Source: Promicromonospora sukumoe (GTDB lineage Bacteria; Actinomycetota; Actinomycetes; Actinomycetales; Cellulomonadaceae). From it: 64,000 nt of DNA. The translations under genes were made by a program, and so were the position numbers. Below the pieces are notes generated by a model that saw only the letters and a program-made list of their open reading frames with translations, made no database searches and was not told the DNA's origin. The stretch is from positions 2,108,001 through 2,172,000 of the forward strand of contig NZ_JACGWV010000001.1 in NCBI RefSeq assembly GCF_014137995.1, written 5' to 3'. This document shows, one piece after another, positions 4,080-38,915 of the stretch; positions within the stretch are counted from its first letter, which is position 1; every line of letters begins with the position of its first letter.

Positions 4080-4121
4080 CTGGCATCGCCATGCTAACTT
4101 TGCTGGCATGAGCATGCTAAA
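4080..4121. promoter_or_regulatory. Paired TetR-type operators and leaderless promoter at the hydrolase start
   Basis: Two copies of the pattern TNGCATNNNNATGCNA occur at about 4081-4096 and 4104-4119, exactly 23 bp apart, so they lie on about the same helix face. Between them TAACTT (4095-4100) sits 7 nt before ATG 4108 and would serve as the -10 of a leaderless transcript. The second dyad covers the start codon. A repressor on both sites would block RNA polymerase directly. Confidence 0.6.
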
Positions 4122-5709
4122 TAGATCGACGACCCGACCACGCCCTCTGCGCGCCGTCGCCGCGGCCGCCGCTGCGGCATCGCTCCTCCTCCTGGCCGCG
4201 TGCGGCCCGGGCGGCCCGACGGCGCCCGAGGGGCAGGCCTCGTCCGGCCCTGACCTGAGCGCCTTCCACGACCAGGAACTTGACTGGGGCTCGTGCGAGG
4301 ACGCGGCCACGAACGAGGCGGACGCGGCGCTGTTCGCGAACCCGGACCTCGAGTGCGCGACGGCCGAGGTGCCCATCGACTACACCAAGCCCGACGGCGA
4401 CACCGGCCGCGTCGCGATGCTGCGCCTGCCCGCTTCCGGTGAACGCGAGGGGTCGCTCCTGCTCAACCCGGGTGGCCCGGGCGGTTCGGGGAACAACTTC
4501 GTCGCGGCCCTCGTGGAGATGTGGCAGGCGACCCCGGTCGCCGAGCGCTACGACATCGTCGGCTTCGACCCGCGCGGGGTCGGTGCGACGACGCCGCGCG
4601 CCGAGTGCTTCACGGACCAGGAGCTCGACGAGGGCGACGGCTTCCGCATCGGCGCCGTCTACGACATCACCAGCGCGGACGAGGCCGAGTACGTGGCCGA
4701 GCGGTGCGTCGAGGGGACCGGCGGCGCCGAGGCGCTGACGAGCATCAGCACGATGAACACCGTGCGCGACATGGACGTCATGCGTGCCGCGCTCGGTGAG
4801 GACAAGCTCACCTTCCTGGGCTACAGCTACGGCTCCGAGCTCGGCGAGAAGTACGCGAAGACCTATCCCGAGAACGTGCGGGCCGTCGTGATCGACGGCG
4901 CCATCTCGCCCGACATCACGGCGTCGGAGTTCCGGCTGTCGCAGTACGTCGGCATCCAGGCCGCGTTCGACGACCTGGCCGCGAACTGCGCCGAGTCTCC
5001 CGAGTGCGTGCTCGGACCCGACCCGGACGCGGCGGTCGAGTCCCTGCACTCGCTCCTGGAGCCGCTCGCCGAGACGCCCGCGCCCACCGAGGCCGGGCGC
5101 GAGGTGAGCATCTACGACGCGTACATCGGCATCATCGGTGCGCTGTACGCCGAGTCCAACTGGCCGAACATCCTCACGGCGCTCGACGAGCTGGAGGCCG
5201 GCCGGGCGGACGCCCTGCTGGCGCTGCGCGACACCTACTTCTCGCGCGGCCCCGACGGCGTCTACGGCCTCGACTACGACTCGAACGTCGCCACCCGCTG
5301 CATGGACTGGCCGGTCCTCAGCCCGCAGGAGCAGACCGCCTTCGCGCGGGAGATCGCCGACACCGCGCCGATGTTCGACCTGGACGCCTTCACGCAGGAG
5401 TACCACCACGAGTGCGAGGCGTGGCCGGCCGGGCCGGACGCCGCGTCGTCGGCTGATGCGCCGTCGGCTGATGTGCCGGACGGCGAGATCCCCTCGACGC
5501 TCGTCGTCTCGGTGACCGGCGACCCGGTCACGCCCCACGCGGGCGGCGTCGCCATGGCGCGCGAGCTGGGCGGCAGCCTGCTCACCGTGCACGGCAAGCA
5601 GCACGGCGCCTACCTGCTGGGCGGCAGCGACTGCGTCGACGACGCGGTCGAGGCTTACATCCTTGACCTGGAGACGCCGAAGGCGGGCGCGGAGTGCTCC
5701 CTCCCGTGA
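4108..5709 (+). CDS. Secreted lipoprotein alpha/beta-hydrolase, TAP-like (tripeptidyl aminopeptidase family)
   Basis: 533 residues. The N terminus is a lipoprotein signal: Arg-rich n-region, Ala/Leu core, then LLAAC with Cys32 as the likely lipidation site. The hydrolase fold shows the oxyanion-loop region LLLNPGGPGGSG and the nucleophile elbow GYSYGSELG with Ser240. Asp472 (VTGDPVTPH) and His499 (GKQHGAYL) complete the triad, and a C-terminal TAP-like domain carries conserved Cys residues. The family (Streptomyces Slp/Tap type, peptidase S33) removes N-terminal peptides from extracellular polypeptides. It probably acts on the outer face of the membrane. Expression is probably controlled by the divergent TetR gene. 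Confidence 0.87.
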   Translation: MSMLNRSTTRPRPLRAVAAAAAAASLLLLAACGPGGPTAPEGQASSGPDLSAFHDQELDWGSCEDAATNEADAALFANPDLECATAEVPIDYTKPDGDTGRVAMLRLPASGEREGSLLLNPGGPGGSGNNFVAALVEMWQATPVAERYDIVGFDPRGVGATTPRAECFTDQELDEGDGFRIGAVYDITSADEAEYVAERCVEGTGGAEALTSISTMNTVRDMDVMRAALGEDKLTFLGYSYGSELGEKYAKTYPENVRAVVIDGAISPDITASEFRLSQYVGIQAAFDDLAANCAESPECVLGPDPDAAVESLHSLLEPLAETPAPTEAGREVSIYDAYIGIIGALYAESNWPNILTALDELEAGRADALLALRDTYFSRGPDGVYGLDYDSNVATRCMDWPVLSPQEQTAFAREIADTAPMFDLDAFTQEYHHECEAWPAGPDAASSADAPSADVPDGEIPSTLVVSVTGDPVTPHAGGVAMARELGGSLLTVHGKQHGAYLLGGSDCVDDAVEAYILDLETPKAGAECSLP

Positions 5710-5757
5710 GCCGCGGCGCCGGGTGCCCCGTGTTGGGGGCGACGGCGATCTGAGTGA

Positions 5758-5850
5758 TCGGTAGATGGTCAGGTGATCGGTAGTTCGAACTGCCGACCAC
5801 CTGACCATCTACCGACCGCCTGACCTTCTACCGACCACCGATCACCCGGG
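5758..5850. repeat. Long palindromic repeat, copy A1
   Basis: A 58-nt palindrome (5758-5815) has 26-nt arms with two mismatches around a central TTCGAA (5784-5789). Its right side continues as three tandem 19-nt units beginning TGCCGACC at 5791, TACCGACC at 5810 and TACCGACC at 5829. There is no T tract, so it is not a classic terminator. A second, very similar copy in the same orientation lies at 8894-8980. The two bracket the three-gene segment between them. Confidence 0.85.
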
Positions 5851-5881
5851 ACACCAGGCTTCCTGTGGCAGGATCGCCGCC

Positions 5882-7507
5882 GTGTACGACGGAGAGCTCG
5901 AGATCCATGTCACCGTGAGTTCCTGGCAGGCCGACCAGCTCGACGCGTTTGCCGACAGTCGTGGCCTGAAGGTCTCCCGCATCGAGCTGGACCACGGCAG
6001 GACACCCGTCCAGCCGATGCTCACGCTCACCCTGCGCGGATCGCTGGACGACGCGCGCGCCCGCGTCGCCCAGCTGCGTGCCGAGCTGATGGACGCACGG
6101 ATGCAGCCGGTACGCGTCAAGATCGAGGCCGCACCCTGGAACCCCGACGTCCCCGTCACGGACGACGAGGCGCAGCCGGGGCTGCACTTCGAGCACCACG
6201 TGAAGCTCCGTCTGCCCGCCGACGATCTCGGCCGGCTCCTCGAGGCGTCCCGGCTCGCGCGACGTCACGACGCGCGCACCTCACGCAACGCCCGACGCCG
6301 ACGCGACGACGGCACGACGGAGCGGTTCGTGACCCAGCGGTGCTTCGACGTCGGGCGGACCACGTCACGAGCACGCCTGGACGCCCTGCTGAAGGATCTC
6401 GACGGCCACGACTTCGAGGTGCTCGAGGTCGAGGAGGAGTACGTCGTGCTCGACGACAACATCCGCCTCGACGCGGGCTGGATGGGCCACGCCGAACCGA
6501 TCGCACGGATGAACTTCTCGACGAGCGAGTCACGCGTCCGAGGTCTGGCCGCCGTTGCCGCAGAGGACGACTTCCCGGCGACGTTCCACCTCCCGGACCC
6601 CGCCGAGGGCGTGACGCAGCATCCGGTCTTCGACCCGGCACTCAAGCAGTTCCCGAACGCTTTCAGGACAGCGCCTCCGACGTTCGACGACGCCGGTCAG
6701 GCCCAGGCCTGGCACGCCGCACGGGAACAGGCACTGGCCCACGTGCTGCGTGTGATCGCCCGGTCTCCGTGGGCGGACCACCTCGTCGCCCGCGGCAGCG
6801 TGACCCTCCCGGTGTGGCTGGGCGACGACGCCCGCCGGCCCGGCGACATCGACTTCGTCGTCGTGCCGCACTTCCTCCAGGCCGACAGCGCGGAGGCCCA
6901 TGCTCTGCTCGACGGGATCGTCGGGGCGCTCGCGGCCGACCCCGGCCCCGGCCTGCGTGCGGCCGACGCGACTCGCGAGGGTATCTGGACCTACGAGCGC
7001 GCCGAAGGCCGCCGCATCGTCGTCCCGTTCGACGTCGTCCAGGATGTCGTGCCGGGCGCGCTCCCCTCGGGAGTGGTCCAGATCGACCTCGTCTTCGACG
7101 AGCCGCTGCCGGTCGAGCCAGACCGCGCGGTGCTGCCGCCGTCGGGCGCCGAGCTGTTCGTGGCGCCGCCCGCGCTGCAGCTCGCCTGGAAGGTGCAGTG
7201 GCTCGTCACCGACGGGTACCCGCAGGGCAAGGACCTCTACGACGCCGTCCTCCTGTCCCGGCATGCCGCGCTGCCCTGGCAGATCCTCGTCGACCTTCTG
7301 GCTCCCGAGGTCCGGCAGCCCTCCGGAGCCGTAGCCCTGACGGCCTCGGACATCCTGGCGATCGAACCGGACTGGGACGCCTTCGGCGTCGACCACCCCC
7401 ACATCCGGGGAGACCGCCGTGAGTGGGTCGAGGAGCTGGCGCTTGCCGCGCACCGGTCCGAGCGTGCCGCGCGCGAGACGGAGGAGCCATGGCCCGGCCG
7501 ATCCTGA
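5882..7507 (+). CDS. AbiEii-like nucleotidyltransferase with unknown N-terminal domain
   Basis: 541 residues in two parts. The C-terminal part (about 270-500) resembles the nucleotidyltransferase fold of AbiEii/AbiGii toxins: ARGSVTLPVW (Gly305-Ser306), then RPGDIDFVVV with the paired acidic residues Asp322 and Asp324, and LAWKVQWLVTDG...GKDLYDAVLL with Lys450-Asp451. The N-terminal part (1-230) contains EHHVKLRLP, an Arg-rich RNARRRRDDG stretch and RFVTQRCFDVGR, which I cannot assign to a named family. AbiEii toxins transfer nucleotides onto tRNA; whether this one does is inference. Start GTG 5882 lacks a Shine-Dalgarno sequence but has CAGGAT 7 nt upstream. It overlaps the next gene by 19 nt, so the two are translationally linked. 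Confidence 0.6.
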   Translation: MYDGELEIHVTVSSWQADQLDAFADSRGLKVSRIELDHGRTPVQPMLTLTLRGSLDDARARVAQLRAELMDARMQPVRVKIEAAPWNPDVPVTDDEAQPGLHFEHHVKLRLPADDLGRLLEASRLARRHDARTSRNARRRRDDGTTERFVTQRCFDVGRTTSRARLDALLKDLDGHDFEVLEVEEEYVVLDDNIRLDAGWMGHAEPIARMNFSTSESRVRGLAAVAAEDDFPATFHLPDPAEGVTQHPVFDPALKQFPNAFRTAPPTFDDAGQAQAWHAAREQALAHVLRVIARSPWADHLVARGSVTLPVWLGDDARRPGDIDFVVVPHFLQADSAEAHALLDGIVGALAADPGPGLRAADATREGIWTYERAEGRRIVVPFDVVQDVVPGALPSGVVQIDLVFDEPLPVEPDRAVLPPSGAELFVAPPALQLAWKVQWLVTDGYPQGKDLYDAVLLSRHAALPWQILVDLLAPEVRQPSGAVALTASDILAIEPDWDAFGVDHPHIRGDRREWVEELALAAHRSERAARETEEPWPGRS

Positions 7508-8211
7508 TCGTCCTCACCGACGGGGACACGAAGGCCCAGATCCTCGCCCGGCTCCAGCTGGCGGGGGAGTATGTCACCGAGCCTGTCTTCGACTGGCTCA
7601 CGGTCGACGGCTCGTACTTCGAGGTGGACCCGACCGACACGGTCCTGGTCGAGTACGAGGCCCCCACCCTCCGGGCGCTGTTCCCCCGGAGTGAACCGCA
7701 CACGGTCACGATCGAGTACGGCGCACGCGAAGAGGTCCGGCCCCTCCTGCTGGAGGTGACGCGAGGCCTGGAGGGTGTGCTCGACACGACCACGGGGCCC
7801 TTCCTCAGGCTGAGCGACCTGCCTGCCTCGACGTGGCTGGCCCGTCCGGGCCGCCCCGACAGCACCGAGGACGAACCGCTGGCGTTCTTCGAGGAGCACG
7901 ACCTCCCGCGTGAGCAGAGCTGGCAGCCGGTCCCCGACGACACCGCCGGCAGGCGACGGGCTCGGAGCGTGCTCGCCGAGCTGGAGCGCGAGCTCGTCCG
8001 GGGACATCCGCTCTTCCGCCGGATCGTCGGCGTCGAGGCGTTCGACGGCGCCTCGGACGACGTGCTCGTACGGCTGGACGACGGTTCGTACGCCATCGTC
8101 CACCCGACCTGGACCCGGCGCGCCGAGCGCCCCGGCTACCCGACGTGCGAGCTGCTGGGCACCGGCGCCGAGTCAGCACTGCGGTTCCGGCAGAGCGTGC
8201 AGTGGATGTGA
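7489..8211 (+). CDS. Unknown protein coupled to the AbiEii-like gene
   Basis: 240-residue soluble protein, not recognised. It begins MARPILIVLTDGDTKAQILA, a pattern that suggests a small alpha/beta sensor-like or nucleotide-handling start. The middle is acidic. The end (DDVLVRLDDGSYAIVHPTW) resembles short beta-rich domains seen in many actinobacterial unknowns. ATG 7489 is preceded by GGAGG at 4 nt and lies inside the last codons of the nucleotidyltransferase gene. By position it could be an antitoxin, immunity or accessory subunit, but it shows no AbiEi-type helix-turn-helix domain. Confidence 0.55.
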   Translation: MARPILIVLTDGDTKAQILARLQLAGEYVTEPVFDWLTVDGSYFEVDPTDTVLVEYEAPTLRALFPRSEPHTVTIEYGAREEVRPLLLEVTRGLEGVLDTTTGPFLRLSDLPASTWLARPGRPDSTEDEPLAFFEEHDLPREQSWQPVPDDTAGRRRARSVLAELERELVRGHPLFRRIVGVEAFDGASDDVLVRLDDGSYAIVHPTWTRRAERPGYPTCELLGTGAESALRFRQSVQWM

Positions 8212-8236
8212 GTGTCGACGAGAGGCCGCGCAGGTC

Positions 8237-8833
8237 TCAGCCGGTCGGCAGCGCCTCGCCGGCCGCGGCGTCGGGACCGCCCAACGGCACGAGCTCCGGG
8301 CTGAGCACCCGGGCGCGCAAGGAGCGGCCCGGGTTCAGGTAGACCGTGACGTCGTCGACGCCGTGGAGCATGATCAGCGCTTCCTCGGCGCCGTCCCGTA
8401 GGGCGAGGCCGTGCAGCTCGAACGACGTCGTCACCGGTTCTCCGGCACCGTGCCGCGTGGTGTCGTTCTTCCACCACCAGCTCTGGACGGACGAGATGCG
8501 AGCGGGCCCCTTGCGACGCCAGCGCCGCGAGACGTCCCAGGTGGAACCCGACGTCACGTGCGCGGGGATCAGCGCCTCGGCCCGGACGCCGAGGCCCTGG
8601 TTGGCGTCGCGCTGCTCCCACACGACCGACCGCGTCGAGCCGTCGTCGAGGTCGAGCTCGACCCCGAACGCGACCAGGTCCCGCTCACCCTCGTCCCAGT
8701 ACGGACGGGCCGTCCCGTAGTCGAGATCGATGTATCGGACGCCCCGGATCTGGTGCCCGCCCAACGCCCGCAGCGACTCGTGGACGGCCACGGCGTCGAA
8801 CGCGCTCGGAGCCCATGCCGTCCGCTGAGCCAT
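8237..8833 (-). CDS. Unknown protein at the right end of the repeat-framed segment
   Basis: 198 residues, not recognised. It is rich in Trp and acidic residues, with beta-strand-like runs (RYIDLDYGTARPYW, VAFGVELDLDDGS, SSVQSWWWKN, ALIMLHGVDDVTVYLNP) and no signal peptide or membrane segment. It converges on the preceding gene with 25 bp between stops. ATG 8833 is chosen over an in-frame GTG at 8866 because CAGGAT lies 6 nt before it, matching the leaderless starts elsewhere in the window. Palindromic repeat A2 lies just upstream. Confidence 0.5.
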   Translation of the reverse strand: MAQRTAWAPSAFDAVAVHESLRALGGHQIRGVRYIDLDYGTARPYWDEGERDLVAFGVELDLDDGSTRSVVWEQRDANQGLGVRAEALIPAHVTSGSTWDVSRRWRRKGPARISSVQSWWWKNDTTRHGAGEPVTTSFELHGLALRDGAEEALIMLHGVDDVTVYLNPGRSLRARVLSPELVPLGGPDAAAGEALPTG

Positions 8834-8893
8834 CCCGGCATCCTGGCAGCCCACCTCCGCGCGCACAACGAAGCACTGCTCGGCGCGCTGCGC

Positions 8894-8980
8894 GTGGTCG
8901 GTAGATGGTCAGGTGATCGGTAGTTCGAACTACCGACCACCTGACCATCTACCGACCACCTGACCTTCTGCCGACTACCC
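8894..8980. repeat. Long palindromic repeat, copy A2
   Basis: A 66-nt palindrome (8894-8959) is centred on TTCGAA (8924-8929). Its arms are perfect or nearly so, and 19-nt units continue on the right (beginning 8931, 8950 and 8969). It is the same element as 5758-5850 and in the same orientation. It lies between divergent genes, where a terminator would have no obvious role. Confidence 0.85.
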
Positions 8981-9100
8981 CGAGGCGGCCTGATCTGCAG
9001 GTGCGCTGCTCGGCGCGCTCCGCACGGCCCGGCCTGCGACAGTGGTGGGGCAGGGGCGGTCGACGACGGGCGGTGGCCCTCGGGCGCGGGAGGTACGGGC

Positions 9101-10081
9101 ATGCCGGAGCAGGCAGTCGTGGCCCGCGGCATCGAACGACACTTCGGTGACAAGCGGGCGGTGGCTGGTGTCGACCTCACCGTCGAGGCGGGCGAGGTCT
9201 ACGGGTTCCTCGGCCCCAACGGCGCCGGGAAGTCGACGCTGACCCGGGTGCTCTGCACGCTCCTGGCGCCCACCCGGGGCACGGCACAGGTCGCCGGGCA
9301 CGACGTCGTCGACGACGCCACCGCCGTCCGGCTGCGGATCGGGGTCGCTCTGCAGGAGGCGGCGCTCGACGACAAGCAGACCGGCCTGGAGATGCTCCGC
9401 CTCCAGGGGCGGTTCTACGGGCTGACCACCCGCGAGACCGCGCAGCGGGTCGCGGAGCTGCGCGAGCTGATCGACATCGGCGACGCCCTCGACGACCGCG
9501 TCGCCACCTACTCCGGCGGCATGAAACGCCGCCTCGACGTCGCCCTCGCGCTGGTGCACAACCCGGAGGTCCTGTTCCTCGACGAGCCCACCACCGGGCT
9601 CGACCCGCTCAGCCGCGCCGCCGTCTGGGCGGAGATCCGGCGGCTCAACCGCGACCTCGGCATGACCGTCTTCCTCACCACCCAGTACCTCGAGGAGGCC
9701 GACGCCCTGGCCGGCCGCGTCGGCATCATCAACCGCGGCCTGATCGTCGCCGAGGGCACGCCCGAGGAGCTCAAGCGCACCATCGGGACCGACGTCGTGG
9801 TCGTGGACGTCGCCGACCGGCCCGGGTCGGCGCGCACCGCCCTGGCCGACGTCGGCGGCATCCGCAGCATCGACGTCGACGCCCACCGCCTGATGATCTC
9901 CGTCGAGGACGGCGCCCAGGCCATCAGCCCGGTGGCGCTCGCGCTCGACCGGTCCGGCATCCGGGTCCGGGAGCTCGCCCTGCGGCGCCCCACGCTCGAC
10001 GACGTGTTCTTCCGGGTCACCGGCGAGCGGATCGGCGACGACGACGAGAAGGGCCGGCCGACGAGGGACGAACGGCCATGA
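9101..10081 (+). CDS. ABC transporter ATP-binding protein, DrrA type
   Basis: 326-residue ATPase of the daunorubicin-resistance (DrrA) exporter group. Walker A is GPNGAGKST (residues 38-46), the signature is YSGGMKRRLDVAL (from Tyr137) and Walker B is VLFLDEP (157-163) followed by TTGLDP. The C-terminal extension of about 80 residues contains LALRRPTLDDVFF, the C-motif typical of Drr-type ATPases. It acts with the permease encoded 13 bp downstream. GGGAGG precedes ATG 9101. Likely role: export of a hydrophobic compound or lipid; the substrate is unknown. Confidence 0.9.
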   Translation: MPEQAVVARGIERHFGDKRAVAGVDLTVEAGEVYGFLGPNGAGKSTLTRVLCTLLAPTRGTAQVAGHDVVDDATAVRLRIGVALQEAALDDKQTGLEMLRLQGRFYGLTTRETAQRVAELRELIDIGDALDDRVATYSGGMKRRLDVALALVHNPEVLFLDEPTTGLDPLSRAAVWAEIRRLNRDLGMTVFLTTQYLEEADALAGRVGIINRGLIVAEGTPEELKRTIGTDVVVVDVADRPGSARTALADVGGIRSIDVDAHRLMISVEDGAQAISPVALALDRSGIRVRELALRRPTLDDVFFRVTGERIGDDDEKGRPTRDERP

Positions 10082-32660: not shown

Positions 32661-32718
32661 TCGGCAGTCTGTATCGAGATCGGCACAGCGCTGGGCCGAT
32701 CTCGATACAGACTGCCGA
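32661..32718. repeat. Palindrome E1, left of the Excalibur gene
   Basis: 23-bp perfect arms (32661-32683 and 32696-32718) surround a 12-nt apex containing CAGCGCTG. A further direct copy of the half-unit TCGAGATCGGCA lies just to the left. A related palindrome (E2) lies at 33691-33748, after the gene. The shared core is TCGGCAGTC...ATCGAGATCGG. Confidence 0.88.
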
Positions 32719-38835: not shown

Positions 38836-38915
38836 GTGCCCGTCGGGCACCGGCCATCCGCCCCTCACGTGTCAGACGTACAGGTCACCCCCGTGACCTG
38901 TACGTCTGACACGTG
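38836..38915. repeat. Hairpin and perfect 23-bp palindrome (element F)
   Basis: A small hairpin GTGCCC-gtc-GGGCAC (38836-38850) is followed by a palindrome with perfect 23-bp arms (38866-38888 and 38893-38915) and a CCCC loop. No T tract follows. It lies between two rightward genes and is a possible terminator for the oxidase gene. Confidence 0.88.

Follow-up and report, generated by a model that had tools for sequence, protein, structure and literature searches.

Miniature inverted-repeat transposable elements (MITEs) are short, non-autonomous, dispersed, inverted-repeat elements. Repetitive extragenic palindromes (REPs), as described in parts of PMC3733652, measure 20 to 40 bp, are tagged at one end by GTAG or CGTC, and lie mostly downstream of coding regions, between genes in tandem or convergent orientation, with some in genes; those with a GTAG tag often occur with a REP-associated tyrosine transposase (RAYT). 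Rickettsia palindromic elements (RPEs), of about 150 bp, are dispersed palindromes of an intracellular alphaproteobacterium, some of which, according to passages of PMC10969869 and PMC1950309, lie in frame in unrelated genes and encode a shared peptide; nearly half of those in R. conorii are reported to lie in genes. Here, we analyze a 64,000-nt stretch of the Promicromonospora sukumoe genome (the window; assembly GCF_014137995.1, contig NZ_JACGWV010000001.1, positions 2,108,001 to 2,172,000 of the forward strand), in which two copies of a long palindrome, A1 and A2, enclose three genes. The reading that we favor, with moderate confidence, is that A1 and A2 belong to a REP/RPE-like family (family A) of 68-nt palindromes that are dispersed in Promicromonospora and represent a new actinobacterial type. 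The terms "actinobacter", "Cellulomonas" and "Xylanimonas" do not occur in the main text of PMC3733652, and within the mostly open-access literature on Promicromonospora, Isoptericola, Cellulomonas and Actinobacteria, no title or abstract opening pointed to such repeats.

A genus-wide family of 68-nt palindromes

A1 and A2 form a direct repeat of 95 nt with 91% identity in the same orientation (window positions 5745–5839 and 8885–8979), an alignment that, together with a repeat search, bears out the first-pass annotation in its description of a shared palindrome centered on TTCGAA with 19-nt units on the right. Each copy is a near-perfect palindrome; the arms span 29 nt at 93% in A1 and 33 nt at 97% in A2 and are composed of 19-nt units (CTRCCGAYCACCTGACNNN), with a partial extra unit on the right of each copy. 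The unit CTRCCGAYCACCTGACC stands at +0 and +19 in both copies and has six matches in the window, compared with 0.30 expected and at most three in 100 shuffles. Across family A, each arm of the 68-nt palindrome carries two RTCGGYAG motifs 19 nt apart; the consensus has the termini GGTG...CACC, and G(T/C)AG is present inside the arms only. The core of A1 occupies 5753–5820 (C1:2113753–2113820 of the P. sukumoe genome, G000), 43 nt past the stop codon of a TAP-like hydrolase gene, and its right tail, a partial third unit on the plus strand, occupies 5821–5839; the tail is common to A2 and missing from another copy (L054). The core of A2 (8893–8960; C1:2116893–2116960), with its own partial third unit at 8961–8979 on the plus strand, is flanked by divergent genes, which the first-pass annotation had remarked on and the gene calls confirm. 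On either strand, the RNA folds of A1 and A2 have z-scores of −8.7 to −10.8. Because a variant combining ATG/CAT with TTCGAA was found in only 3 of the 86 copies compared from G000 and its nearest relative, G010 (A1, A2 and C2:943680), A1 and A2 are, judging from sequence, probably a recent pair, one copied from another.

The 6.5-Mb genome of P. sukumoe holds 43 places of family A, one of them a half copy, as identified by BLAST and a covariance model built from 40 copies, and G010 holds 46. The first-pass annotation had offered a genome-wide element as the alternative to excision or cassette exchange and had named dozens of scattered copies as evidence against the latter; a search of the genome and its relatives turned up exactly such a scatter, and the genome-wide alternative proved right. 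Among 59 genomes searched (own, genus, family and order), 25 have a match at E ≤ 0.01, comprising all 13 genomes of Promicromonospora, 11 of 24 from other genera of the family (7 of these at less than 1e-12) and, from other families of the order, 1 of 22 (4e-8); these counts are lower bounds that rest on at most the best 87 candidates per genome. In a class-wide sample of 246 genomes, in which the filters were stricter and counts are lower bounds from at most the best 20 candidates scored per genome, only G000 and G269 have a match at 1e-6. G269, from another family of the class, carries a relative-looking family of 58-nt palindromes (L305–L307). Within the genus, 4 to at least 87 match rows per genome were obtained with both strands counted, and copy number ranges from about 2 places (4 rows, G007) to at least 43. 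The best copy from each of six other genera keeps the 68-nt palindrome, with 31–34 of 34 pairs and both motifs 19 nt apart, and differs in the stretch between the two motifs; the copy of a seventh genus (G025) is of odd length and was left out of this in-register comparison. More than one copy among these other genera was seen only in G032, where the copies share the middle, and in G014, which has at least two versions.

No match to family A was found in 72,556 plasmid records, nor to one exact A pattern in viral contigs, and plasmid or viral carriage was rejected on these grounds. An exact 20-mer had no match in a genome contig collection, the 20-mer being variant-specific and our own records maybe excluded. 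A search for known RNA families gave no match at gathering score over the window and only sub-gathering matches to microRNAs, which we take as the fit of a long hairpin. Ten close pairs of copies lie within 3.2 kb of each other, compared with 0.90 expected and a maximum of seven in 5000 simulations. A local duplication of about 200 bp that includes an A copy is clear in L043 (3980 and 4173; 90 of 100 upstream letters equal) and partial in L042 (3912 and 4135; 54 of 100); the pair in L048 is not a local duplication (37 of 100).

Placement at gene ends and matching of the arms

Placement was scored against genes called with a simple codon-usage gene caller for 129 copies in four genomes: 42 in G000 (the half copy, C3:363066, was left out here and from the copy alignment, from which the later-found copies C3:57172 and C2:1352649 are also absent), 44 in G010 (leaving out two of the 46 places, C10:58643 and C6:299), and 20 in G002 and 23 in G012, which are most, not all, of those listed by score in genomes that hold more. 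Sixty copies lie between convergent genes, 52 between tandem genes and 10 between divergent genes, and 7 are inside called genes (in the same order, 19, 15, 5 and 3 in G000; 19, 20, 3 and 2 in G010; 11, 7, 1 and 1 in G002; 11, 10, 1 and 1 in G012). The length-weighted background of convergent gaps at the same loci is 18, 10, 6 and 27% for G000, G010, G002 and G012, giving binomial p values for convergent enrichment of 1e-5, 2e-9, 1e-9 and 0.018, and divergent copies are scarce in G010 (3/42 versus a background of 40%, p = 2e-6); A2 is one of the 10 divergent exceptions. The median distance of copies to gene 3′-ends is 38, 30.5, 14 and 18 nt in the four genomes, respectively. Tandem copies lie closer to the upstream stop codon in 13 of 15 cases in G000 and 19 of 20 in G010, at medians of 31 and 33 nt from it.

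The three called genes of G000 that contain a copy encode a Pfam ABC_tran protein that we take to be cydC-like (L050), a PIG-L-type deacetylase and a lutC-type LUD protein. All three copies are read in the same frame and are predicted to encode peptides like RSAEGQVVGSSDYRSPDILPT; in the ABC transporter protein the palindrome peptide comprises residues 523–545, inside the nucleotide-binding ABC_tran domain (residues 472–651), and the lutC copy lies inside the LUD domain. Of 80 copy-orientations, 54 have this frame open and 24 have another open, and none has the third. Gene calls replaced open-frame length as the mark of coding copies, because this GC content makes long open frames commonplace. 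The lutC copy is present in 7 of the 13 genus genomes (G000, G001, G002, G004, G008, G009 and G012) and absent from G006, G007, G010 and G011, with G003 and G005 left unscored. Among the best 120 of 7262 lutC homologues, 45 have the A peptide by a lax pattern and 40 by a strict one, and 25 others, several named Isoptericola, carry an unrelated peptide, LSGP...PDNS, in the same position. This latter peptide sometimes occurs twice in tandem in the LutC loop of Isoptericola and similar proteins (P0090–P0116). Its codons alone (GAGTTGTCGGGCCC...GGGCCCGACAACTC) suggest that it could be encoded by another palindrome; a palindrome pattern of this type was absent from the DNA searched, which included no Isoptericola lutC DNA.

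The two arms of a copy change together. The 129 copies show 366 two-sided departures from the consensus, of which 316 are Watson-Crick, compared with 218 expected if the arms were independent, and at 18 conserved positions all 8 two-sided departures are Watson-Crick, compared with 0.95 expected. Many family A sites are common to different species, and 32 same-site comparisons between G000 and G010, some of which share one G010 copy and whose orientations come from BLAST, yielded 164 differences confined to one arm and 79 affecting both; full compensation is seen in 50 of the 79, whereas about 24 would be expected from independent changes at one common rate. Some site pairs are as unlike as random copies (50–53 of 68 positions versus a mean of 54) despite matching flanks, others are nearly identical (66 of 68), and two match better, by at least 4 letters, with the element reversed in place (L056/L159, 63 versus 55; L046/L151, 60 versus 56). 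Compensated arms are also kept in the in-gene copy L050/L148, at two such pairs. Selection on a transcript helix should favor G.U, and the sense-strand mismatches in the 52 tandem copies comprise 80 G.U and 81 A.C. Because these two mismatches occur equally often on the transcribed strand, arm matching is probably kept at the DNA level, and selection on a transcript hairpin is unsupported. Quasipalindrome template switching, described in part of PMC7202029 as a mutational route by which imperfect inverted repeats become perfect or more nearly so, would explain the matched arm changes and perhaps also the copies that look inverted in place; it is a process, not an element family, and DNA-level arm copying of this kind is the inference that we favor. 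Between G000 (L045) and G010 (L153), a stretch of about 1.1 kb that carries one gene is inverted, and the A copy changed sides along with it.

We infer that copies of family A would have been spread by a trans-acting enzyme that reads the fourfold motif, and that insertions would survive mainly where they are harmless, either just past stop codons or in proteins by way of the commonly open frame. Once a copy is in place, quasipalindrome template switching at replication, in which one arm is copied from the other, would be what keeps its arms matched, not selection on an RNA hairpin; A1 and A2 would be a recent pair, one copied from another. Several points weigh against a selfish repeat of this kind. 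No mobilizing enzyme was found in a search limited to one transposase family: the IS200/IS605-type Y1 transposase (PF01797) has no match in any of the 13 genus genomes, which led us to reject a Y1/RAYT partner; no other transposase family was searched, and the same search gives a match in 5 of 14 control genomes. No clean target-site duplication was seen at three insertion/absence comparisons, where the flanks had diverged. The scarcity of divergent copies is weak in G000 alone (5/39 versus 25%, p = 0.05), and the shared-site copies among the 129 are not independent. Mean identity is 87.0% for the element and 87.2% for the flanks in 24 pairs, so rapid replacement holds for some pairs only, and we abandoned the idea of faster evolution in the elements than in the flanks. 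A DNA cruciform or a protein-binding palindrome under selection could also explain the matched arm changes, and strong placement at gene ends would also fit a function.

One such function would be that of a gene-end device, either a (bidirectional) transcription terminator or an mRNA 3′-end stabilizer, maintained by selection on the transcript hairpin. The convergent enrichment, the medians of 31 and 33 nt past the upstream stop in tandem gaps and the very stable fold of A1 and A2 all agree with such a device, as does the similar placement, in these genomes, of 48 palindromes that fall into at least five other families, only one of the 48 being divergent and one in a gene. Nevertheless, we consider it rather unlikely, given that the copies lack a U-tract (TTTT within 12 nt at 3 of 258 copy ends), that G.U is not favored over A.C on the sense strand of tandem copies, that compensated palindromy is kept inside open reading frames and that 10 of the 129 copies lie between divergent genes. 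Highly improbable, in our view, is that family A is bound by a sequence-specific protein, such as one that organizes the chromosome, with selection at the DNA level maintaining the fourfold RTCGGYAG site. Copy number varies widely within the genus, copies are missing at shared sites (e.g., lutC in G010, G006, G011 and G007), a single genome can hold several versions (at least two in G014; G000 also has family B) and placement follows gene ends, even though the 68-nt shape and the motif pair persist in eight sequences (the genus consensus, a single copy from each of six other genera and one from G011) and lineage-specific letters appear in both motifs of an arm, with 8–9 of 11 equal.

The other palindromes comprise at least five families (B to F, grouped by motif) with arms of about 30 nt; 5 of their 48 places in four genus genomes fall outside the five motifs, and families B to F lie mostly after genes. 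Of these, B, C, D and E are represented in the window. Family B, with two copies centered at 32689 and 33719, has two ATCGGCAG-like motifs in each arm at a spacing of 19 nt, which is the same 19-nt architecture as that of family A in a different sequence. Family C (GAGACCTAAGTTTCTTCGCTTTG-like; window center 31360) has 14 places in four genus genomes, 12 of them convergent or tandem. The members of families D (ACGTGTCAGACGTACAGGTCACC) and E (CGAACGTAGG) are centered at 38890 and 20110, respectively.

The block between A1 and A2

Gene calls agree with the first-pass annotation that A1 and A2 enclose exactly three genes. Its further description of all three as being of unknown role stands for genes 2 and 3, which have no Pfam or PADLOC match, but not for gene 1 (5882–7507, plus strand), whose 541-aa product is a defense fusion of AbiE type that matches AbiE profiles over both parts: an AbiEi-like N-terminal part (PADLOC 6e-67, residues 6–202) is fused to a C-terminal AbiEii nucleotidyltransferase (PADLOC 4.5e-96; Pfam PF08843, 3.8e-15). 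Gene 2 (7489–8211, plus strand) encodes 240 aa and gene 3 (8237–8866, minus strand, with its start at 8866 or 8833) up to 209 aa. To the left lies the gene for the TAP-like alpha/beta hydrolase (4108–5709, plus strand) and to the right that for a DrrA-type ABC ATPase (9101–10081, plus strand). None of the other 12 genus genomes has a match to gene 1. Among 150 genomes of the family, 5 further ones carry it, as do four loci in Streptomyces. The single-protein AbiEi/AbiEii-like fusion is scattered across the family and Streptomyces. No A copy was found within the 1.5-kb flanks of AbiE homologue loci from other genera of the family, and genes 2 and 3 have no relatives at the AbiE loci examined in the family and Streptomyces. 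Partial DNA relatives exist for gene 2 in G005 (C6, 173 bp, 73%) and for gene 3 in G010 (C17, 224 bp, 73%) and G004 (C13, 141 bp, 77%); the G010 relative is about 77 kb from the nearest A copy listed on C17.

These data bear on the possibility that direct A copies are borders of blocks gained or lost by recombination, the A1–A2 block being one such, which we regard as quite improbable. A comparison of G000 with G010 shows gene-order breaks at 7 of 30 gaps that bear a copy, versus 20 of 85 other gaps of at least 80 bp and 8 of 78 shorter gaps, counting gaps with at least one mapped flank and leaving out 6, 22 and 27, respectively, with neither flank mapped. With no excess of breaks at copies, a general cassette role is unsupported; the excision or cassette exchange put forward in the first-pass annotation was not borne out as a general role, and the same comparison with other gaps led us to reject a recombination hot spot as a general rule. 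At the A1–A2 site itself, synteny with G010 starts about 107 bp to the right of A2 (window position 9087), the left side has no listed close counterpart, and a single-copy empty site for the block was not found. The AbiE homologues of other genera that have no A copy in their flanks, and the partial relatives of genes 2 and 3 elsewhere, one of them far from the copies listed on its contig, likewise speak against cassette borders. In their favor are the near identity of A1 and A2 as direct repeats, the lack of a match to gene 1 elsewhere in the genus and a locus with an M20 peptidase gene, which has the arrangement A-gene-A in G000 (L059, 6397–7863) and a single A without the M20 gene in G010, G012 and G002. 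However, the M20 gene is kept in G006 with a decayed left copy and in G009 with a decayed right copy and the left copy undetected, and these relics weaken the case for the gene as a clean cassette. On a small unrooted glycosyltransferase tree, if rooted on G012/G002, its history is consistent with the gene having been gained before G000, G006, G009 and G010 diverged and then lost in G010, other histories being possible. Cassette-like loss or exchange at A copies may thus be occasional.

Because A1 and A2 belong to a family of about 43 scattered copies, the block is probably framed by two neighboring copies of a selfish-looking repeat, and these are probably not the borders of a movable cassette. 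The simplest account would be an AbiE-type accessory block framed by chance plus local copying, and loss of the block by recombination between A1 and A2 would be possible.

Comparison with described repeats

Intrinsic terminators, in which a U-tract comes after a GC-rich hairpin and pairing is maintained in the transcript, differ from family A, in which U-tracts are rare and G.U is not favored. Like MITEs, the copies of family A are short, dispersed, non-autonomous and of inverted-repeat structure; target-site duplications and terminal repeats that match a transposon are marks of MITEs, and for family A no clear duplication was seen at the three insertion/absence comparisons with their diverged flanks, nor a parent transposon in the search for PF01797. 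With REPs they share many extragenic copies at gene ends, mostly between tandem and convergent genes and downstream of coding regions, as well as some copies in genes. They differ from REPs in their length of 68 nt and in the absence of a terminal tag, the consensus ending in GGTG...CACC in place of the tag of the GTAG/CGTC class, and PF01797, the family expected for the GTAG class, is found in none of the 13 genus genomes. With the usual transposase missing, what spreads these repeats becomes a directly testable question. We raise as a tentative possibility that family A exemplifies a new class of mobile palindrome in actinobacteria, in which the fourfold motif would be read by a lineage-specific trans-acting enzyme other than Y1/RAYT, some palindromes would code for protein in frame, and unrelated palindromes would have entered the same LutC loop independently. 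The 129 copies and 32 shared-site comparisons also allow arm-to-arm correction to be separated from RNA selection by means of G.U versus A.C. Family A and RPEs are alike in that both are dispersed palindromes found in frame in unrelated genes, three in G000, with a shared (in G000, predicted) peptide. RPEs are about twice as long and, in R. conorii, lie in genes far more often than family A, for which the figure is 7 of 129; family A has arms built of 19-nt units and belongs to an actinobacterium. The family described here would extend REP/RPE-like repeats, in-frame protein-coding ones included, to a high-GC actinobacterium.

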